Of a stretch of DNA of 64,000 bases, positions 468 through 56,248 are shown piece by piece (position 1 is the stretch's first letter; the number at the start of each line of letters is the position of its first letter). This DNA comes from Caldithrix abyssi (GTDB taxonomy: Bacteria > Calditrichota > Calditrichia > Calditrichales > Calditrichaceae), in contig DRQG01000109.1 in assembly GCA_011369465.1 (NCBI GenBank), positions 1 through 64,000 on the forward strand, written 5' to 3'. Both the position numbers and the translations under genes were made by a program. Below the pieces are notes generated by a model. The model was not told the origin of the DNA. It saw only the letters and a list, made by a program, of their open reading frames with translations, and searched no databases.

Positions 468-2801
468 TTGCTCTCCGATAGGATAAAAAATATAGGGCAA
501 TCGCCCACGATGAAAATAGCGGCAAAAGCCATTGCCATGAAAGCAGAAGGTATCGATGTGGTCGATTTTAGTGTGGGCGAACCGGATTTTCCCACGCCCC
601 GGTTCATCAAAGACGCTGGCAAAAAGGCCATTGATGATAACCTGACCCGCTACACCATTAACCGCGGCATCGTTCCCTTGCGTAAGGCGATAGCGCAAAA
701 GTTAAAGGAAGATAACGGCCTTGACTATGATGTTTCCGAAATTATCGTATCCAATGGCGCCAAGCAAAGTCTCTATAATGTAGTGCAGAGCGTGGTGGGG
801 AAGGATGACGAAGTCATTATCCCGGCGCCGTATTGGGTATCCTACCCGGAGATGGTGCGTTTGGCGCAGGGTAAACCGGTTATTGTGCAAACGCATGAGG
901 AAAACGGTTTTAAACTAACTGCCGACCAACTGCGTAAAGCCATTTCCGCCAATACCAGAGCGATCATTATCTGCAATCCATCCAATCCGACCGGCGCCGC
1001 TTATACCCGCCCGGAACTGGAAGCTCTGGCCGGAATACTGGAAGAGGAAGATATAGTCGTTATCTCCGATGAGATTTATGAAAAACTGGTATTCGATGAT
1101 TTTAAATTTACCAGTATCGCCGCCCTGAGTTCCAAAATAAAGCAAAAGACCGTGGTTATTAACGGATTTTCCAAAGCCTATGCCATGACCGGCTGGCGTA
1201 TCGGCTACGCTGCCGGCCCGAAAGACATCATTTCGGGCGCTGATAAAATACAAAGCCACAGTACCTCCAATGCTTCCTCTGTGGCGCAATACGCTGCCCT
1301 TACGGCGCTTAACGGTCCTCAATACGAAATTAACCGCATGGTGGCCGAGTTTCAGCGTCGGCGCAATTACGTGGTGCAGCGTCTGAACGGTATGCCCGGC
1401 GTCAGTTGTAATACGCCGGAAGGCGCCTTTTATGTTTTCCCTAATGTGGAATCCTTTTTCGGCAAGGAGGCAGAGGGCAATTACATCCGAAATTCTTATG
1501 GGCTGGCCTACTATCTTCTGCGCGAAGCCAAGGTGGCCCTGGTTCCCGGTGCGGCTTTTGGCAAGGAGGGGTACATTCGCATTTCCTATGCCACCTCTAT
1601 GGAAAATCTGGAAAAAGGGTTAAATCGAATCGAAAAGGCTCTGGCCAAACTTAAAACCCCCTCACGGGCCAAATTTGTACAACTGAATAATTACAAGACC
1701 AGGGTTACGATAAAAGCACCCATAGAAGCGGATTTAACGCCGGACAAACGCGATGCAATCGTGGCGGAAGCCGAAGCACAGCTTAAATTTGACCAGTATT
1801 TTGAATGGAACGCCAATATCAACGGGGTTATCGTACAACTGCGCACAAATAACGGTCATTTGTATGATTTCTGGGTGGAAAACTGGTATCCGGCCCAACT
1901 GGAAGCCGATCTGGAACCACACGCCGTTATTTATGCCGTGGACGGCGCGGTGGGGCGTGAAACGCATGCCTTTTATCATCCCGAAACCCACACGGGTATT
2001 TTATTCAACTGCGATTATTATGCCGCGCTGCGCAGCCTGGCTCTGGGAATGGTGAGCGACATCGGCGCTTCCGTGTTCAACCTGCACTCTGTGCGCGGGA
2101 TGTCTGGTGATCGCGACGGACACGGTTTTATGCTCATCGGTCCGAAAGGCACGCATAAAAGCGAATTATTTTTGCATCTGATCCAGGAAGACAATATCGC
2201 CCTGCATTCCAACGATTTGGTTTTTGTTCGTTACGGCGGCGGGTATGCGGCGGCCGATATGCCGGAGCGCAAACTCTATTTCCCGACCATTTCGGCGGAG
2301 ATATTTCCTCAATTAAGCGCACTCTTCGATCGCAGTAAATGCGAAAATGTGTTAACCGATCGGGATAACTGCCAATATGAAGATTGTCCGCTTCGCGGCG
2401 ATTGTCAAATGGAAAAAGGTATGCCGTATTGCTATTTCGGTTCGCCCAAAGCGGCTGCCATGCTGGACCCTTACTGGATAGGCGGAATGAACAAGCATGT
2501 AAAAAGAACGGACTTACGCACGGTATTTTTGCTTGTCAACGAACCGGCTGGCGCCATTTTGCAGGAGACAGACAAGGCCTCCGCCTTAACAATGATCGAG
2601 TCCGGTACGAGCAGCGGGCATGCCGAACAGAGCGCGCCCTTTTACAATCCGCATTTGTTATTGACGGATAGCGAAAGCTATGAACGCCAAAAAAGAGGGT
2701 TTGAGCAGCTCCTGCATCAGGCAAACGTGTACAAACTGAATACCGGCGCCGGTTCACCCGCGGAGGTAGTGAACGCGGTGGTGGAGAAAATTACAAAATA
2801 G
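468..2801 (+). CDS. Class I aminotransferase fused to a PEPCK/HPr-kinase-like P-loop domain
   Basis: Residues 1-395 are a complete class I PLP aminotransferase of the aspartate aminotransferase type. Visible residues are NPSNPTG at 170-176, DEIY at 201-204 (Tyr204), the PLP lysine K236 in SKAYAMTGWR, and the substrate-carboxylate Arg371. After a short linker the reading frame continues without a stop for about 380 residues. This second half contains a P-loop-like GPKGTHKS (558-565), a downstream HSND (580-583), and a five-cysteine cluster (C625, C635, C640, C646, C655). Its layout (a stretch resembling the PEPCK substrate region, then the P-loop) recalls the PEPCK/HPr kinase fold. The start is TTG at 468, preceded by a GAGG Shine-Dalgarno at about 458. 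The next gene is a PEPCK homologue, so a link between aspartate, oxaloacetate and PEP is plausible. The activity of the C-terminal half is unknown. Confidence 0.85.
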   Translation: MLSDRIKNIGQSPTMKIAAKAIAMKAEGIDVVDFSVGEPDFPTPRFIKDAGKKAIDDNLTRYTINRGIVPLRKAIAQKLKEDNGLDYDVSEIIVSNGAKQSLYNVVQSVVGKDDEVIIPAPYWVSYPEMVRLAQGKPVIVQTHEENGFKLTADQLRKAISANTRAIIICNPSNPTGAAYTRPELEALAGILEEEDIVVISDEIYEKLVFDDFKFTSIAALSSKIKQKTVVINGFSKAYAMTGWRIGYAAGPKDIISGADKIQSHSTSNASSVAQYAALTALNGPQYEINRMVAEFQRRRNYVVQRLNGMPGVSCNTPEGAFYVFPNVESFFGKEAEGNYIRNSYGLAYYLLREAKVALVPGAAFGKEGYIRISYATSMENLEKGLNRIEKALAKLKTPSRAKFVQLNNYKTRVTIKAPIEADLTPDKRDAIVAEAEAQLKFDQYFEWNANINGVIVQLRTNNGHLYDFWVENWYPAQLEADLEPHAVIYAVDGAVGRETHAFYHPETHTGILFNCDYYAALRSLALGMVSDIGASVFNLHSVRGMSGDRDGHGFMLIGPKGTHKSELFLHLIQEDNIALHSNDLVFVRYGGGYAAADMPERKLYFPTISAEIFPQLSALFDRSKCENVLTDRDNCQYEDCPLRGDCQMEKGMPYCYFGSPKAAAMLDPYWIGGMNKHVKRTDLRTVFLLVNEPAGAILQETDKASALTMIESGTSSGHAEQSAPFYNPHLLLTDSESYERQKRGFEQLLHQANVYKLNTGAGSPAEVVNAVVEKITK

Positions 2802-2845
2802 TTCAATAAACTTGTTGATGAAATATTAGAATATTGGAGTATTGG

Positions 2846-2913
2846 AGTGGAGTGTTGGAGTGATGGGGAAATATTTTCATTACTCCATTATCCCATTACT
2901 CCAACACTCCACT
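2846..2913. repeat. 22-bp inverted repeat of GGAGT words
   Basis: The intergenic region before the PEPCK homologue has left arm 2846-2867 and right arm 2892-2913. They are reverse complements over 22 bp with a single mismatch. The arms are built from GGAGTG/TTGGAGTG words and extend outward as further GGAGTATT words from about 2829. The same word family occurs in inverted orientation at 56108-56248. There is no T-tract, so this is not a standard terminator. An in-frame ATG at 2842 lies inside the repeat and is unlikely to be used. Confidence 0.75.
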
Positions 2914-2952
2914 ACTTGTAATTTCATTCTTTCTCGAACATCGGGGATTGCC

Positions 2953-4809
2953 ATGACACACGATATTTATGACGAATCATATTACAAACGTTTTTATAAC
3001 GAGCTCAGCGGCTTATTAAGCGGTAAAAACATTCAAACCGTCAGTATGGGCTATCTGGAAAAAGAAGCCCGTAAATACGCCCGTAGAACCGAATACGGTT
3101 CCTACGTTTGGTCTTCGAAAATATCCAACCGGTTGGCGCCCAAAACGGTTTATCTGGGCAGTGAACGGGTACGGCTGCCCCGGCCGACCGAAGAGCAGAA
3201 ACAGATTATCCGCAACGCACCGCAGCAATTGGACAAGGTGCTGCACTGGATAAAAAAACTGCCTTTCGTGCACATCCGCCGTCAGATGGGGCATAATGGG
3301 GAATATAACCCCATCTGCAATTTGTATGTAAGTGTCAACGATCCGAAAAATATCCGCCTGGCCTATATGTGGGCTTCCACCATGTTCGATCCTTCATCGC
3401 GTCCCGGTCCGGAATTCACTATGATACATATCCCGGAAGAACATCTGATGCGGGCGCAGGTTCTGGCTTTACCCGAATACAATATGAATATCTGCATGGG
3501 TTCCGATTATCTGGGCGAGGATAAAAAAGGTTTTCTGCGTCAGGCCATGTGGCGGGCTGACGAGCAGGGTATGTTGGGGCTGCACGCCGGCACAAAAATC
3601 GTAACCGTGCGCGACCCGCGCGAAGGAAAACTGAAAAAATACGGCGTTTTTCTGTTCGGAATGACCGCCACCGGCAAATCCACCTGGTCCTGCCATCAAT
3701 TGGGATTAGACCCGGACAGGGGAGAGTTCACTCAGGCGGCGCAGGATGATATCGTTTTTCTTACCAAAGACGGATCGGCCTACGGTTCGGAAAACAATTT
3801 CTATGTTAAAACCGATGTGACCGAAGAACATCAGGAAGCCATGTACAACGCTCTGGTGGATAAATCGGCTCTGATAGAAAATGTGATGGTTGATTACAAA
3901 GGAAATGTGGATTTTTTGGACGAATCTCTTTGCGGCAATGGCCGGGCGGTTATTTTTCGCAAAAAATTAGCGGTTAAGCAGGGCAGAAAATTGGTGGGTA
4001 TCAGCGCGCCGACCATCAACCTGCCCTCGCTGGAGGAAATGGACGGGCTGATTTTCGCCTTTATCACCCGGCGCAACACGATTATGCCCTTTGCTCAGGA
4101 ACTGACCCCGGAACAGGGCGTGCTGGCCTATTTATGGGGCGAATCGACCCACAGTTACGCTTCCAACCCGGCGTTGGCCGGCGATTCCGTGCGTATTGTG
4201 GGTACGGATCCGTTCATTGTCGGTTCGCGCGGGCGTAAAGTCAATCGATTTTATGATATTGTAATGCAGTTGGTCAGCAAGTATCCCGGTAAGGTGCGTT
4301 TTATGATGTACAATACCGGCGGTATGGGCGAAATCATCGAAACCTACGAAGAAAACGGACAAAAAAAGAAGAAACTGGTGCGAAAAACCGAGCGCGTGCC
4401 CCTGCCTTTGATGGCTGCCATTCAGCGCGGCGACCTGCGCGGCACCAATCAGTACGAGCCGGGTCTGCTGGGAACAAAATCCATTGTAGCTGTGGAAGGC
4501 AAACCAATCCCCGAGTATGATCCTACCCGGTTTTACTCGCAGGAACAAATCGATTTTTACATCCGCGATCTGGTGGAAGGCCGGCGCAAATTTACCGATA
4601 TCATTGCCGGGGAAGGACTGAAACCGGAAATCGTACGCACCGCGGAAAAAGCTTTCAGCATCGAACCCGCAGCTAAGCCGTCAGTTGCCGCATCTGCCGC
4701 CCCTTCTTTTCCCGGAACCAGCACCGTCGAAAGCGACAAAGTGGTTATCGTTACCACGGCTCAGCCGGTGTCCCGCCCGCGCCGCCCCGGAACATGGAGG
4801 TGGAGATAA
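2953..4809 (+). CDS. Divergent ATP-type phosphoenolpyruvate carboxykinase homologue
   Basis: The protein is about 618 residues, longer than the usual 530-540 of ATP-PEPCK. Positions matching the catalytic core are visible: GEDKKG (K191/K192, metal-ligand lysine region), His211 in LHAGTK, the P-loop GMTATGKST at 236-244, an Asp pair at 265-266, and Arg331. The usual GLSGTGKTT P-loop and the DDEH motif are altered (GMTATGKST and DDIV). The C-terminus carries about 40 low-complexity Ala/Ser/Pro residues. I chose ATG 2953 because the longer frame from 2842 runs through an inverted repeat. The gene follows the aminotransferase fusion in the same direction. The known family reaction is oxaloacetate + ATP to PEP + CO2; whether this divergent member performs it is inference. 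Confidence 0.75.
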   Translation: MTHDIYDESYYKRFYNELSGLLSGKNIQTVSMGYLEKEARKYARRTEYGSYVWSSKISNRLAPKTVYLGSERVRLPRPTEEQKQIIRNAPQQLDKVLHWIKKLPFVHIRRQMGHNGEYNPICNLYVSVNDPKNIRLAYMWASTMFDPSSRPGPEFTMIHIPEEHLMRAQVLALPEYNMNICMGSDYLGEDKKGFLRQAMWRADEQGMLGLHAGTKIVTVRDPREGKLKKYGVFLFGMTATGKSTWSCHQLGLDPDRGEFTQAAQDDIVFLTKDGSAYGSENNFYVKTDVTEEHQEAMYNALVDKSALIENVMVDYKGNVDFLDESLCGNGRAVIFRKKLAVKQGRKLVGISAPTINLPSLEEMDGLIFAFITRRNTIMPFAQELTPEQGVLAYLWGESTHSYASNPALAGDSVRIVGTDPFIVGSRGRKVNRFYDIVMQLVSKYPGKVRFMMYNTGGMGEIIETYEENGQKKKKLVRKTERVPLPLMAAIQRGDLRGTNQYEPGLLGTKSIVAVEGKPIPEYDPTRFYSQEQIDFYIRDLVEGRRKFTDIIAGEGLKPEIVRTAEKAFSIEPAAKPSVAASAAPSFPGTSTVESDKVVIVTTAQPVSRPRRPGTWRWR

Positions 4810-5688: not shown

Positions 5689-6681
5689 ATGAAAGCAACG
5701 GCCAAGGCGCATTCCAATATCGCTCTGATTAAATATTGGGGGAAAAGAGACGAACGGCTTAACCTACCGGCGGTGGGGTCCATATCGCTTACCCTGGATG
5801 CGCTGCATACCGTTACCTCCGTTCATTTCGATTCCGCTTTAAACGACGACGAACTGATCCTCAATGATGAAAAAGCCGGCGACAAGGAAACGGCACGCAT
5901 CAGCGCTTTTCTGGATTTGATTCGCCAAATGGCCGGTATGACTCATAAAGCCAGAATTAACAGCCAAAACAATTTTCCCACCGCCGCCGGGCTGGCTTCC
6001 TCGGCTTCGGCTTTCGCGGCGCTGGCACTGGCGGCCGCGAAGGCTGCCGGATTGTCCCTCTCAAGGAAAGAGTTGAGTGTTTTGGCCCGTCAGGGTTCCG
6101 GTTCGGCCGCCCGTTCCGTGTATGGGGGATTGGTGGAAATGAAGCGGGGAAGCGCAGCGGATGGCCGCGACGCCTATGCCGTACGGCTTGCTGAACCCGA
6201 TTACTGGGATTTGCGGCTGTTGATTGCGGTAACCTCCGAAGCAAAAAAACCGGTGGGTTCCACAGCAGGCATGCGTCTCAGCGAACGAACCTCGCCCTAT
6301 TATCATGCCTGGGTGGACAACTCCGAAAACGATTTGCAGGATATGCGGCAGGCTGTACAGCAAAAAGATTTTGAAAAAGTGGGAGAACTGTGCGAATTCA
6401 GCGCGCTTAAGATGCACGCCCTGGCGCTAAGTTCCAATCCCGGCCTGATTTATTGGAACGGGGCCACGGTAGAAGGAATGCACGTTGTCCGCTCTTTGAG
6501 GCGGACCGGACTGCCGGTCTGGTTCACCATCGACGCTGGACCGCAGCTTAAGGCGCTTTGTCTGCCCGAAGCAGCGGCAAAAGTGACGGAAGCCCTGCAG
6601 AATGTTCCCGGCGTTCGGCAGGTTATCGAATGCCGAACGGGCCCGGATGCGCTTGTACTTAACGAAGAGGCACCTTTATGA
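5689..6681 (+). CDS. mvaD: Diphosphomevalonate decarboxylase
   Basis: This 330-residue GHMP-superfamily enzyme catalyses the ATP-dependent decarboxylation of mevalonate 5-diphosphate to isopentenyl diphosphate. The N-terminal NIALIKYWGKRD motif is diagnostic. FPTAAGLASSASAFAALA is the phosphate-binding loop, SGSAARSVYGG follows, and FTIDAGPQLKAL carries the catalytic aspartate. Length matches the family. It is the first gene of the mevalonate cluster and overlaps the next gene by 4 nt (ATGA). The Shine-Dalgarno before ATG 5689 is weak, but no better start exists because the family motif begins at residue 9. Confidence 0.95.
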   Translation: MKATAKAHSNIALIKYWGKRDERLNLPAVGSISLTLDALHTVTSVHFDSALNDDELILNDEKAGDKETARISAFLDLIRQMAGMTHKARINSQNNFPTAAGLASSASAFAALALAAAKAAGLSLSRKELSVLARQGSGSAARSVYGGLVEMKRGSAADGRDAYAVRLAEPDYWDLRLLIAVTSEAKKPVGSTAGMRLSERTSPYYHAWVDNSENDLQDMRQAVQQKDFEKVGELCEFSALKMHALALSSNPGLIYWNGATVEGMHVVRSLRRTGLPVWFTIDAGPQLKALCLPEAAAKVTEALQNVPGVRQVIECRTGPDALVLNEEAPL

Positions 6682-7745
6682 TTACCGCTCTGGCTCCCGG
6701 GAAAATGATTCTGCTCGGAGAATACGCCGTTCTGGAAGGATCGGCGGCGCTTGTCTGCGCGGTGGATCGGTACGCCCGGGTTCAGTCGGCATACAACCGT
6801 ACAGGCGAGCATTTTATACGGGCAGCTTCTCTGGGGATTGAGGGCGAACCGTTTGTTATTAACGCCAACGGAAAAGTGCGCTTTAATCCCACGGCTGATT
6901 CGCTGCTGATTAAACGATTGGGGTTTTTCGCCGCGCTGTATGAAAGTTTGTATCCCCGTTTGGTTAAAGCAGGCAAAGGAATTAAATTGGCATTGGACAC
7001 AACCGATTTTTATTCGCAGCAACTGCATACAAAATTCGGTTTCGGTTCCAGCGCCGCCTTAACGGTGGCTATGACGGCGGCGATTGACGCTTTGGCGGGA
7101 GAGAAATTATTTAGTAACAAGGAAATTCTGCATCTTGCCTTGCAGGCGCACCATCAGGCGCAGGGGAAAATGGGCAGCGGCATCGATGTGGCGGCCAGCG
7201 TTTACGGCGGCGTTCTCATCTATCAGAAGGATGCGGAACAGGAATTTCCCGCACGGGAACCGCAAAATGTACCTTTGCGCGACGATATACCAATGATTGT
7301 TGTCTGGTCGGGCAAATCGGCTTCCACGCGGTCGATGGTCGGCGCCGTAAACGGGCTGAAAGCGCAAAATCCGTCGCTGTATCGTTCTATCATGGATGAT
7401 CTGACAACACTTTCCGTAGATGGCATTGCTGCCTACCGGCAGGGAAGCGGCGACGAATTTTTGCGCCTTGTAAACGACTATCATCGGACAATGGACAGAC
7501 TGGGTAAAGAAGCGGGAGCGGATATCATTTCCGCCGAACATGCCGCCCTGTTCGAACTTTGTACGGCGGAAGGCGCGGCTTATAAACCATCCGGTGCCGG
7601 CGGCGGGGATATAGGCATCGTCTTTTGCCGGGAAACTCAACAGAGAGACTTCCTGAAACAAAAAATCACCCAGCAAAATTTCAACATTGTACCGGTGATG
7701 GTTGCTTCGCAGGGAATAAAACGAACGGAAGAAGACAGTAGATAA
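6678..7745 (+). CDS. GHMP kinase, probably phosphomevalonate kinase
   Basis: This 355-residue GHMP kinase has the start motif APGKMILLGEYAVLEG, the ATP loop FGFGSSAALTVA, and KMGSGIDVAASVYGG in the middle. Substrate assignment rests on context. The cluster already has a decarboxylase and a mevalonate kinase domain, so the remaining kinase step (mevalonate 5-phosphate to 5-diphosphate) is the best fit. GEYAVLEG rather than GEHAVVYG also suits phosphomevalonate kinases. It is translationally coupled to the decarboxylase through a 4-nt overlap. Confidence 0.85.
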   Translation: MITALAPGKMILLGEYAVLEGSAALVCAVDRYARVQSAYNRTGEHFIRAASLGIEGEPFVINANGKVRFNPTADSLLIKRLGFFAALYESLYPRLVKAGKGIKLALDTTDFYSQQLHTKFGFGSSAALTVAMTAAIDALAGEKLFSNKEILHLALQAHHQAQGKMGSGIDVAASVYGGVLIYQKDAEQEFPAREPQNVPLRDDIPMIVVWSGKSASTRSMVGAVNGLKAQNPSLYRSIMDDLTTLSVDGIAAYRQGSGDEFLRLVNDYHRTMDRLGKEAGADIISAEHAALFELCTAEGAAYKPSGAGGGDIGIVFCRETQQRDFLKQKITQQNFNIVPVMVASQGIKRTEEDSR

Positions 7746-7810
7746 TGGAAATAGTTAGTATTCATTAAACGTGTAAGACTTAATAAATCGAAATAAAAAG
7801 GACTTCTGTT

Positions 7811-10066
7811 ATGGCAAGTTCTCGCATACCCGGATTTTATAAATATTCGGTTCAGGAACGGCTGAAAATACTACACGATAAACATCATTTAAATGAAGAA
7901 GACTACGCGCTGTTGAGAAACGGTAAAGGGATATTGCGTCCCACAGATTCCGACAAAATGATTGAAAACGTCATCGGCGTCTTTGGTTTGCCCCTGGGTT
8001 TGGGGCTTAATTTTTTAATCAATGGCAAAGATTATCTGGTTCCGATGGCCGTGGAAGAACCGTCCATTCTGGCGGCGGTCAGTTCCGCGGCAAAGATTGT
8101 TCGTAAAACCGGCGGCTTTCGCAGTAAAGCGTTCGATTCAGTGCTCATCGGCCAGATACAGGTGGTCGATTTTCGCAACGCTTCCAAAGCCAAAAACGCC
8201 GTTCTACAAAACCGGGAGGAAATAAAGAACCTGGCCAACAGCCTGCATCCCAATATGATCGCCCGCGGCGGCGGCGTACGCGATGTGGAAGTGCGTATTT
8301 TGTCCGGCGCTTCCCGTGAGCGCGGCGATATGCTTATAGTGCATCTGCTGGTAGACACCAGAGACGCCATGGGCGCTAATCTGGTAAACAGTATGTGCGA
8401 AGGTGTGGCCTCCCTGATAGAAAAAATTACCGGCGGTAAGGTTTTCCTGCGCATCCTGTCCAACCTGGCCGACCGTTCCATCGTGAAATCCGATTGCACA
8501 ATACCTGTACAGTTATTGGAAGGAAAAGGATACTCCGGAGAAGAAGTAAGGGACGGTATCATTTTAGCCTATGAATTTGCCGCAGCCGATCCTTATCGCG
8601 CCGCCACGCATAACAAAGGCATTATGAACGGGATTGACCCGGTGGTTATTGCTACCGGCAACGACTGGCGGGCCATTGAAGCGGCCGCACATGCTTATGC
8701 AGCAAGAGGCGGGCGCTACACATCGCTGACTACATGGGGTAAAAATGAAAACGGCGACCTGGTGGGATCAATTGAAATACCTATTCGGGTGGGAACCGTG
8801 GGCGGGCCGTTGGAAAGCAATCCCATGGTGCCGGTAATGCACCGTTTGATGGGAATTAAATCGGCGGCGGAGCTGGCTGAAATATTAGGCGCAGTGGGAC
8901 TGGCGCAGAATATTTCCGCTTTGCGCGCTTTGGCAACGGAAGGCATACAGCAAGGACACATGAGCCTGCATGCCCGAAGCGTGGCCATCGCCGCAGGCGC
9001 CGGCCCGGAAATCTTTGAAACCGTGGTGGAAAAATTAGTGGACTCCAATGAAATAAAGGTCTGGAAAGCCAAGCGAATTATAGAGGAAATAAAAAGCCGG
9101 GAAGAGGCGCCGCAAGCCGATTTATATCTGCAGCCAACGGAAGAAAAACTTCCCACCGGGCACGGAAAGATCATTTTACTCGGCGAACACGCTGTGGTTT
9201 ATGGCAGTCATGCCATTGCCGCCCCCATCCCTTTGGCCATGCAGGCCAAAGTGAGCGAAACAGACAATGAGGGCATTCATCTGATCATCCCGCGTTGGGG
9301 GGTGGAAGAACAAATCCGTCACGGCGCAGAGCATAAATATTCCATATTCAAATCATTGGAATTGATTCTCGATACATTGGATCTGCAAAAACAAAATATG
9401 AAGATAGAGGTGTTTCCTTATGTACCCCGCGCCATGGGGCTAGGGGGATCCGCCTCTTTGGCGGTAGCCATTATCCGCGCTTTATCGGAACAGTACAAAT
9501 TGGGTCTGAGCGATACGGATGTATCCCGGCTGGCTTTTGAATCCGAAAAAATCGTGCATGGCACTCCATCGGGAATTGACAACACCATGGCCACGTACGG
9601 ACGTTTCCTTTTGTATAAAAAAGGGGAGCCGCCCTTTATGGAAACCATCCGTGTGGAAAAGCCCATTCGTATTGTCATCGGTTTAACCTGGGTGGAAAGT
9701 TTAACCGCCAAAATGGTCAGTCGGGTGCGGCAGGGCTGGGAACGGAATAAAAAAGTGTACAATCATATCTTCAAAGAAATTGATTTACTGGTAAAAGATG
9801 CGGTGAAGGCGATCGAAAAATATGATTTACAGCAGCTGGGCGAACTGATGAATATCAATCAGGGATTGTTAAACGCCTTGCAGGTTTCCGGTCGGGAAAT
9901 CGAAGAACTGGTGGATATTGCCCGTTCCAAAGGCGCCCTCGGAGCCAAGTTAACCGGCGGCGGCGGAGGCGGCGCTATCATCGCCCTGTGTCCGGACAAT
10001 GCCGAAAAAGTGGCTATGGCCATCAAAAATGCCGGCTACCAGGCATTTATTACGGATATACAATGA
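7811..10066 (+). CDS. HMG-CoA reductase (class II) - mevalonate kinase fusion
   Basis: This 751-residue bifunctional protein carries two consecutive steps of the mevalonate pathway. Residues 1-430 are a class II HMG-CoA reductase. The catalytic set is present: Glu82/83 in VEEPS, Lys269 in THNKGIMNGID, Asp285 in TGNDWRA, and His383 in GHMSLHAR, with numbering close to the Pseudomonas mevalonii enzyme. Residues 448-751 are a mevalonate kinase: GKIILLGEHAVVYG (Lys453), GLGGSASLAVA (543-553), and GTPSGIDN with Asp590. The linker of about 20 residues is charged. An AAGGA Shine-Dalgarno precedes the ATG. I know of other HMGR fusions (thiolase-HMGR in Enterococcus MvaE), but this pairing is uncommon. 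Confidence 0.95.
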   Translation: MASSRIPGFYKYSVQERLKILHDKHHLNEEDYALLRNGKGILRPTDSDKMIENVIGVFGLPLGLGLNFLINGKDYLVPMAVEEPSILAAVSSAAKIVRKTGGFRSKAFDSVLIGQIQVVDFRNASKAKNAVLQNREEIKNLANSLHPNMIARGGGVRDVEVRILSGASRERGDMLIVHLLVDTRDAMGANLVNSMCEGVASLIEKITGGKVFLRILSNLADRSIVKSDCTIPVQLLEGKGYSGEEVRDGIILAYEFAAADPYRAATHNKGIMNGIDPVVIATGNDWRAIEAAAHAYAARGGRYTSLTTWGKNENGDLVGSIEIPIRVGTVGGPLESNPMVPVMHRLMGIKSAAELAEILGAVGLAQNISALRALATEGIQQGHMSLHARSVAIAAGAGPEIFETVVEKLVDSNEIKVWKAKRIIEEIKSREEAPQADLYLQPTEEKLPTGHGKIILLGEHAVVYGSHAIAAPIPLAMQAKVSETDNEGIHLIIPRWGVEEQIRHGAEHKYSIFKSLELILDTLDLQKQNMKIEVFPYVPRAMGLGGSASLAVAIIRALSEQYKLGLSDTDVSRLAFESEKIVHGTPSGIDNTMATYGRFLLYKKGEPPFMETIRVEKPIRIVIGLTWVESLTAKMVSRVRQGWERNKKVYNHIFKEIDLLVKDAVKAIEKYDLQQLGELMNINQGLLNALQVSGREIEELVDIARSKGALGAKLTGGGGGGAIIALCPDNAEKVAMAIKNAGYQAFITDIQ

Positions 10067-10079
10067 TCAATGGGCAAGA

Positions 10080-10316
10080 GGAATGTCCAATGATGAAGTA
10101 TAAAATGGGAATTGAGCATTCCGTGTTGGATATTGGCTATTGGAAACTCAAGACGGGAGAATATCCAATAACGAACATCCGCCACGGGCGGACAGGCGGA
10201 ATGTCCAATGATGAAGTATAAAAATGGGAATTGAATATTTGTTGTTGGATATTGGTTATTGGAAGCTCAAAGCGGGAGAATATCCAATATTCAACAAGGA
10301 ATGCCCAATGATGAAG
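10080..10316 (+). repeat. Direct repeat of 118/100-nt period upstream of idi
   Basis: GGAATGYCCAATGATGAAGT occurs at 10080, 10198 and 10298. The first two copies are each followed by a diverged 100-nt unit containing AAATGGGAATTGA, TTGGATATTGG and GGGAGAATATCCAATA. The TTGGATA/TTGGCTA/TTGGAAA run has a 7-nt step like the arrays elsewhere in the window. Short frames here are repeat artefacts. A CCACGGGCGG-like palindromic insert separates the first and second units. Confidence 0.8.
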
Positions 10317-10342
10317 TTAATTATGAAGGGAAAGAGGAGAAG

Positions 10343-10903
10343 ATGCATAATAACGAGGTAGTGTCTTTTGACGATGAAAAATTAATTTTAGTGGATGAAA
10401 ATGATAACGTCCTCGGGTATGAGAATAAAGACCTTTGTCACCGGGGGCAGGGCATACTGCACCGGGCTTTTTCCATTTTCATTTTTAACGATAAAAAAGA
10501 GCTGCTATTGCAAAAACGCAGCGCTCAGAAGCCGCTGTGGGGCGAATACTGGTCCAATACCTGCTGCAGCCATCCCCGTAAAGGAGAAAGCTACGAACAG
10601 GCCACGGTGCGCCGCTTAAAGGAAGAGTTGGGGCTGGAAACGGAAATGAAATTCTTGTACAAATTTCAGTACCAGGCCAATTTCGGCGACAAAGGTTCGG
10701 AAAACGAGCTGTGCTCGGTGTATATTGGTAAATCCAATGCCCTGCCAACGGTTAACGAGAACGAGATTGCCGAGTGGAAATACATCTCTATGGACGATCT
10801 GGATAAAGACCTGGCCCAACACCCCGAAAAATACACCCCCTGGTTCAAAATGGAATGGCAGCGCCTGCGCACGGATTTTAAAGAAGAGATAGAGAAGCTT
10901 TGA
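10343..10903 (+). CDS. idi: Isopentenyl-diphosphate isomerase, type I (Nudix)
   Basis: This 186-residue type I isomerase interconverts IPP and DMAPP. The active-site cysteine is in SNTCCSHP (Cys75 by alignment with the NSVCGHP motif of E. coli Idi). The catalytic glutamate is in SENELC (about Glu122), and the Nudix-like helix is RRLKEELG. I start it at ATG 10343, which has an AGAGGAGA Shine-Dalgarno at 10333-10340. The 28 extra upstream codons in frame come from the tandem repeat. Its position after the mevalonate genes completes the route to both C5 units. Confidence 0.93.
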   Translation: MHNNEVVSFDDEKLILVDENDNVLGYENKDLCHRGQGILHRAFSIFIFNDKKELLLQKRSAQKPLWGEYWSNTCCSHPRKGESYEQATVRRLKEELGLETEMKFLYKFQYQANFGDKGSENELCSVYIGKSNALPTVNENEIAEWKYISMDDLDKDLAQHPEKYTPWFKMEWQRLRTDFKEEIEKL

Positions 10904-53997: not shown

Positions 53998-54475
53998 AAA
54001 GAACAATGTTTCGTTCTTAAATCGCTTATCATTGATCGATATTCGAAATTCCTGGCTTTATTTATTAAATAACTATCGGCTGCCTTGCCCTGATCCCACT
54101 CGGGCGGGACGAAGCGAGATTCGGCTTCGACCCCGACGAGTCGGGGCAGGCGAAGCTCAGCCTCCGTTCCCTGAACCTGACCTGTCCCGATTGAATGGAA
54201 TCGAACCCTGAGCCTGTCGAAGGGTGAGTTCTGCTGAAGATACACATCGACTTCTAAGGGCGGTGTATTGAGCTTGCCGAAATGCTCAGTCTCCGTTCCC
54301 TGAGTTTGGCCTGCCCGGACTTGTCGGGGTAGAAGGGCCAGTTATCCCCGCCACGGCGGGTTATTCGCTACGCTACGAAAGTTTTCAGTTATTAGTTATC
54401 TGTTATCAGTTTTTAGGTAATTTCCAGTATCCAGCATCCAGTATCCAGTATCAAATTCCTTATAATGCGGTTTTA
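53998..54475. repeat. Mosaic of dispersed repeats and a word array
   Basis: This 478-nt gap has no gene. Positions 54118-54340 carry the CTTCGAC/CTGAGC family with CCCCGAC-GA-GTCGGGG (54131-54146) and a second CCCGGAC-TT-GTCGGGG (about 54314-54329). At 54347-54360 is CCCGCC-AC-GGCGGG, then a TTCG...CGAA hairpin (54364-54379), then CAGTT/TCAGTT words (54381-54414) and CCAGTAT heptamers (54423-54452). The two hairpins plus CAGTT words have the same order and spacing as at 19296-19345. Confidence 0.8.
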
Positions 54476-56107: not shown

Positions 56108-56248
56108 GAAGGAGTGATGGAGTTTTGGAGTAGTGGAATGATGAATTTGTGGATTGATGAATTTGCGCAATAAATAATTGCATCAATAATCTTTTGCTTA
56201 ATAGAGCATTACATCACTCCAACACTCCATTACTCTATTACTCCATCA
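56108..56248. repeat. Inverted GGAGT word repeat
   Basis: GGAGTGATGGAGTTTTGGAG and further TGGA words at 56108-56142 face the complementary ATCACTCCAACACTCCATTA words at 56211-56246. The family is the same as at 2829-2913. It lies between the DUF72 and kdsB genes; the right part borders the kdsB stop. Confidence 0.7.

Follow-up and report, generated by a model that had tools for sequence, protein, structure and literature searches.

The fused gene and its surroundings

The window analysed here, a stretch of 64,000 nucleotides from Caldithrix abyssi taken from base 1 of contig C109 onwards, contains at positions 468–2801 of the forward strand a single open reading frame of 777 amino acids with no stop or frameshift inside it. 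The frame begins with a TTG codon preceded by GAGG. Its first part (468..1646, forward strand, residues 1–393) encodes a class I aspartate aminotransferase (AspAT) of the Thermus/Phormidium type. Residues 30–388 match PF00155 (E 1.4e-78, 265 bits against a curated cut-off of 19.7), and the PLP lysine, Lys236 (codon at 1173–1175, forward strand), and the carboxylate-binding Arg371 are in place; both residues, as well as Lys99, are invariant in 32 aligned fusions. The best PDB match is the aspartate aminotransferase 1j32 (E 2.9e-115), and, judging by the closest solved relatives, mostly AspATs or aspartate/prephenate aminotransferases, this half probably interconverts aspartate and oxaloacetate. 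An earlier note, made from the letters of the sequence, had described a class I aminotransferase with Lys236 and Arg371 that continues in frame into a further domain; both parts of this description hold, the second half being 384 residues long.

The C-terminal domain (1647..2798, forward strand, residues 394–777, stop codon at 2799–2801) finds no Pfam match in the window protein, and PF01293 gives none at E <= 1. An AlphaFold2 model of residues 394–777 built with 52 homologues (pLDDT 89.3, pTM 0.88) retrieves only PEPCKs among the top 50 Foldseek matches in the PDB (best E 1.4e-17), with a TM-score of about 0.73 when normalised by query length, which places the predicted model within the PEPCK fold. 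Profile comparison by hhalign with the family of the downstream PEPCK gave a probability of 96 (E 4.2e-9, 241 columns), and the NCBIfam PEPCK model matches 16 of the 52 members of the second-half family (best E 6.2e-13). The direct profile match to E. coli-type PEPCK is weak (probability 31, E 5e-4), so it is the closer PEPCK family, together with the fold, that supports homology to PEPCK. Similarity to HPr kinase/phosphatase (HPrK) is more distant: TIGR00679 matches 21 of the 52 members (best E 7.7e-5) and is marginal on the window protein (E 0.11, 11.7 vs 240 bits), and the HPrK structures 1knx and 1ko7 are matched at E ~0.005. The second half has no PF07475 match, and its equivalents of GxSGxGKS and Asp-Asp are degenerate, which sets it apart from HPrKs proper. 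The PEPCK/HPrK-like fold proposed in the earlier note is thus supported by structure prediction and profile comparison alike, and according to the model the second half comprises the whole PEPCK fold in compact form, more than a P-loop module. In the full-length prediction (pLDDT 83, pTM 0.52) the two folded halves are joined by a weak linker (pLDDT <50 at 401–406), and the model does not fix their orientation to each other.

The next gene on the same strand (2953..4809) encodes a divergent ATP-PEPCK homologue, as the earlier note had recognised. It exceeds the PF01293 cut-off (81.7 vs 26.5 bits), stays under the curated cut-off of NF006821 (297.6 vs 369 bits) and probably starts at ATG 2953, not at TTG 2842. 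The protein keeps Tyr223, Lys228/229, His248, GMTATGKST, Asp302/303 and Arg368 (numbering of the frame from 2842), the equivalents of E. coli Tyr207, Lys212/213, His232, Walker A, Asp268/269 and Arg333, and with this full catalytic set can be classed as an ATP-PEPCK. A long imperfect palindrome with GGAGTGTTGGAGTGATGGG arms, resembling a repeat-element hairpin, lies between the two genes (2833..2930, forward strand); the predicted RNA fold of 2801–2952 has an energy of −55.2 kcal/mol (z −5.9). A related copy occurs at 56210–56228, and the palindrome looks like a dispersed repeat element.

Elsewhere in the genome, searches found a canonical PEPCK (748 bits, contig C98), a genuine HPrK (217 bits, contig C3) and HPr (108 bits, contig C161), so the second half is needed for neither PEPCK nor HPrK activity. 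A role of the second half as the sole gluconeogenic PEPCK was rejected in view of the canonical gene on C98, and that of an HPr kinase is unlikely, as HPrK and HPr are encoded elsewhere and the motifs are degenerate. The C. abyssi genome paper assigned the conversion of oxaloacetate to PEP to Cabys_0267, and the words aminotransferase and carboxykinase are absent from its main text (PMC5317091).

Further along the window, at 7811–10066, a class II HMG-CoA reductase is fused in frame to a mevalonate kinase (TIGR00532 437 bits, then TIGR00549 257 bits). This gene belongs to a mevalonate-pathway cluster (5689–10903) that also encodes a diphosphomevalonate decarboxylase, a GHMP kinase and a NUDIX protein, the last probably an IPP isomerase.

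Distribution of the fusion and its genomic partners

A search of a genome collection with the second half yielded 75 loci. In 57 of them the same aminotransferase is joined in frame, or a contig end cuts the locus short in a manner that fits the fusion; one of the 57 (L031) begins inside the domain, so that the fusion is not visible there. The remaining 18 loci, the standalone forms sampled from these 75 alone, have frames of 357–442 aa. Calditrichota, Bacteroidota/Ignavibacteria, Aminicenantes (with Saccharicenans) and Zixibacteria are the sources of the fused loci, and three further labels, Clostridiales (L017), Caldisericaceae (L005) and Thermoplasmatota (L027), probably reflect mis-binning; L005 has exactly the aminotransferase sequence of a Calditrichota genome. 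A frameshift or stop between residues 390 and 420 in other assemblies would have spoken against the fusion. None was found, and the frame runs uninterrupted across the junction in over 50 independent loci from several phyla, among them six Zixibacteria records labelled chromosome (CP070813, CP070756, CP070674, CP070766, CP070742, CP070777) and a single-contig relative of 4.98 Mb (G005). A sequencing or assembly artefact can therefore be dismissed.

Within the Calditrichota, the fusion was found in 9 of 40 genomes. An AspAT of this family (E <= 1e-90) is present in 27 of the 40, always as one copy, fused or unfused and never both, which indicates that the fusion replaces the ordinary housekeeping AspAT. 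A 1,245-residue AspAT-containing frame in another genome (G029) was discarded as a further fusion because it crosses a masked X stretch. The fused proteins fall on one side of a single branch both in the tree of the second half (support 100/100) and in that of the aminotransferase half (93/96), and the trees fit a single fusion event. The nearest outgroups in the aminotransferase tree are unfused Calditrichota enzymes; with unfused enzymes sampled from this phylum only, this tentatively hints that the fusion may have been born in or near Calditrichota and later spread laterally.

The most constant neighbour of the fusion is a gene that lies outside the window. In all 49 fused loci with enough flanking sequence, the gene immediately upstream, in the same orientation, encodes a flotillin (median gap 68 nt). 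At one of these loci (L002) its product was recognised by the SPFH domain PF01145 (100.8 bits) and by PF15975 (28.8 vs 27 bits); the flotillin of the window genome (L090) scores 280 bits against the 700 required by the NCBIfam FloT equivalog NF058507. It is encoded on contig C55, about 239 bp from the contig end and reading towards it. The flotillin was invisible to the earlier note because contig C109 begins at window base 1. Clustered CTTCGACRAGCTCAG repeats are found near that contig start (159–352), and also at 54208–54222; the cluster at 159–352 is likely to have caused an assembly break between flotillin and fusion. A flotillin at the end of C55 and repeats at the start of the window are what would be expected from a break inside the operon. 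The end of C55 and the start of the window share no 20-mers, so the join of C55 and C109 is inferred from synteny only; in the single-contig relative, flotillin, fusion and PEPCK genes are consecutive.

The divergent PEPCK follows within 1.5 kb downstream in 29 of 43 fused loci, and in most Zixibacteria a nucleoside diphosphate kinase (NDK) gene separates it from the fusion. Among the 40 Calditrichota genomes, this flotillin occurs in 8 of the 9 with the fusion and none of the 31 others, and this PEPCK in ten, that is, all 9 with the fusion and one of the 31 others, counts that reflect one linked operon in related genomes and not independent events. No PEPCK of this type was found anywhere in the sampled genomes with Saccharicenans-type fusions, which indicates that partnership with PEPCK is not essential and that flotillin is the more constant partner.

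In Deltaproteobacteria the standalone gene (L053–L063, L065, L069, L073) mostly stands in the order guaB, guaA, LOG-family gene, PEPCK-like gene, S49 peptidase.

The former active site of the second half

Alignment placed the active-site positions of E. coli Pck (locus L095) on the window protein: Lys212 and Lys213 correspond to residues 522 and 523, His232 to 543, Lys254/Thr255 to 564/565, Asp268/269 to 582/583 and Arg333 to 663. The window protein has Arg522, Ser523 and Arg543 in place of the catalytic Lys212, Lys213 and His232, so that the catalytic set of a PEPCK is absent from it. Arg522 (2031..2033, forward strand) and Arg543 (2094..2096, forward strand) are both arginine in 56 of 56 readable fused loci, whereas all 18 standalone proteins have lysine and histidine, respectively. 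The standalone proteins also keep a canonical Walker A, Asp-Asp at 582–583 and Arg at 663. In the window, GPKGTHKSE (residues 558–566, 2139..2165, forward strand) and Ser-Asn-Asp (residues 581–583, 2208..2216, forward strand) stand where the standalone forms have a GxxGxGK[ST] motif and Ser-Asp-Asp, the latter containing the equivalents of Asp268 and Asp269. The earlier note had placed GPKGTHKS at 558–565 and HSND at 580–583, and both are there, the P-loop as a degenerate remnant. A canonical Walker A is retained in 5 of 54 fused loci; position 582 is mostly Asn in the fused loci, and position 663 varies, the equivalent of Arg333 being missing in many, the window included.

The P-loop of fused forms has decayed in several ways (GPKGTHKS, GQPGTKKT, GPKGLKRGS), the last of which marks the loss of the Lys254 equivalent in most Zixibacteria fusions, while Arg522 and Arg543 do not vary. 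That the two arginines are invariant despite such varied decay points to selection for binding at the old active site, and we infer that phosphotransfer has probably been lost from the second half and a binding site retained. Two Zixibacteria fusions (L029, 6001–7131, and L049, 6001–7122) keep a canonical Walker A together with Asp-Asp and have no adjoining PEPCK, and these may still bind nucleotide; three further fusions have a canonical Walker A. An association of intact Walker A with the absence of an adjoining PEPCK (Fisher p 0.015, raw) was not accepted, as it comes down to two independent pairs on the tree.

The most conserved motif of the domain, YFEWNANINGVIVQLRTNNGHLYDFWVENW (1797..1886, forward strand, residues 444–473), appears to correspond to the PEPCK N-lobe motif. 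W447, N450, G453, L458, T460, N461, H464, D467, F468, W469, E471, N472 and W473 are invariant or nearly so in fused and standalone proteins together.

A cluster of five cysteines had been singled out in the earlier note as a possible metal or Fe-S site. Cys625, in a KCENV motif, and Cys635, 640, 646 and 655, in a loop of metal-binding appearance (2340..2432 altogether, forward strand), lie at the positions given there, and in revised form that idea becomes a four-ligand metal-type loop (position 640 being Cys or His) beside a family-wide Cys625. As a conserved set the five do not stand, since all of them occur in only 30 of 53 readable fused loci, and a five-cysteine Fe-S cluster as the defining feature was rejected on the same count. 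The KCENV motif is common to fused and most standalone forms; the loop is absent from most standalone forms, including the deltaproteobacterial and Nitrospirae ones. Five Bacteroidota/Ignavibacteria loci have His at 640 and Ser at 655 with another Cys nearby, and positions 635 and 640 are lost in most Zixibacteria fusions. From these alignments, a four-ligand metal site seems plausible in most fused lineages and is not general.

Possible roles and comparison with known systems

The second half is most likely a pseudo-enzyme, acting as a ligand sensor and/or docking module, and not a kinase. The earlier note had offered a regulatory or a catalytic kinase. The catalytic version fails on the replacement of the Lys212, His232, Walker A and Asp268 equivalents in fused forms, with all of them kept in standalone ones, and on the separate encoding of HPr, HPrK and canonical PEPCK; a regulatory role is possible. 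On the basis of sequence comparison and modelling, we judge the chances to be slightly better than even that the fusion is the cell's AspAT carrying a dead pseudo-PEPCK domain that senses a ligand and/or docks. The pseudo-PEPCK half would bind an anionic ligand at Arg522 and Arg543 of the former active site, with oxaloacetate, PEP or nucleotide as candidates, and would adjust the transaminase. Additionally or alternatively, it could dock AspAT in an assembly with the upstream flotillin and, where present, the downstream PEPCK. Such sensing or assembly would regulate the flux through the branch point of oxaloacetate, PEP and aspartate. A more specific version, which we regard as tentative, proposes a flotillin-scaffolded assembly in which the dead PEPCK domain of AspAT monitors the pool of oxaloacetate and PEP and forms a pair with the live neighbouring PEPCK; gene linkage is no proof of physical interaction. 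If this were true, a pseudo-enzyme of PEPCK fold would govern the entry to and exit from oxaloacetate.

Alternatively, the second half could be a purely structural tether that senses no ligand and anchors AspAT to membrane patches organised by flotillin. The presence of flotillin in 49 of 49 loci, with or without PEPCK, would fit such a tether, as would the strongest conservation falling on an aromatic and Asn-rich N-lobe motif shared with standalone forms. That same motif, however, is found in standalone forms that are not beside flotillin, and a tether alone would hardly account for invariant arginines in the former active site, so we consider this reading unlikely. A bifunctional enzyme, whose second half would be an active kinase or PEPCK using oxaloacetate or phosphorylating a protein, is more doubtful still. 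Compatible with activity are the PEPCK/HPrK-like fold and remote homology of the second half, the Lys564-Ser565 pair kept in the window's Walker A and the full Walker A with Asp-Asp of L029 and L049. Against it, the residues equivalent to Lys212 and His232 are both Arg in 56 of 56 fused loci, the one equivalent to Asp268 is mostly Asn, those equivalent to Arg333 and Lys254 are missing from many (the window included) and from most Zixibacteria, respectively, and the genome has separate genes for canonical PEPCK and HPrK. Least probable is a new chemistry of the old active site that relies on the two arginines together with the metal-type loop: the arginines are invariant across several phyla without drift and the loop is present in most lineages, but its ligands are lost in Zixibacteria where the arginines stay, and we know of no nameable reaction that uses such a site.

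The sensing and/or docking pseudo-PEPCK would have a wider significance. Pseudo-enzymes are well known among protein kinases; we are not aware of any description of a pseudo-PEPCK joined to a second enzyme of central metabolism. A fusion at the aspartate/oxaloacetate/PEP junction would represent a type of regulated or membrane-tethered metabolic enzyme that is both new and open to testing, and through the standalone relatives, whose active sites are intact, live and dead forms can be compared as they occur in nature. To our knowledge, bacterial flotillins have few defined client proteins, and a defined soluble enzyme as the constant genomic partner allows a direct test of their role as platforms. 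The earlier note knew of no characterised protein of this architecture, and a limited search of the open-access literature likewise found no description of an AspAT/pseudo-PEPCK fusion. Each fold is known in itself; what appears to be undescribed is that the two are combined, that catalysis is lost and that flotillin is a constant partner.

Each part of the fusion can be set beside a known system. The whole N-terminal half resembles class I (Ibeta) AspATs (PDB 1j32, 1bjw, 6f77 and the plant aspartate/prephenate aminotransferase 5wmh) and shares with them the PLP lysine, the substrate arginine and the Lys99 region. These solved enzymes stop approximately where the AspAT half of the fusion stops, and none of the PDB matches listed has a PEPCK-fold extension. 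With ATP-PEPCKs, such as E. coli Pck and the Thermus enzyme, the second half shares the fold, the N-lobe motif and the positions of the P-loop and metal residues, but it is about 150 residues shorter and lacks a Pfam PEPCK match. HPr(Ser) kinase/phosphatase and HprK-related kinases have a similar P-loop subdomain; in contrast to them, the second half has a full PEPCK-type N lobe, and its P-loop and Asp-Asp are degenerate. The nearest counterparts are the standalone PEPCK-like proteins of Deltaproteobacteria, Nitrospirae, Acetothermia and Planctomycetota (among L053–L073), which have the same domain (33–40% identity) and the same N-lobe motif but, unlike the fusion, are unfused, keep their catalytic residues and adjoin neither flotillin nor AspAT in the loci read. 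The gene upstream of the fusion is likewise a flotillin (PF01145, PF15975), as in the operons of SPFH2 flotillins (FloT/YuaG). Its partner here is the AspAT fusion, whereas the classical partner gene of flotillin is NfeD or one of its relatives (PMC2636767).
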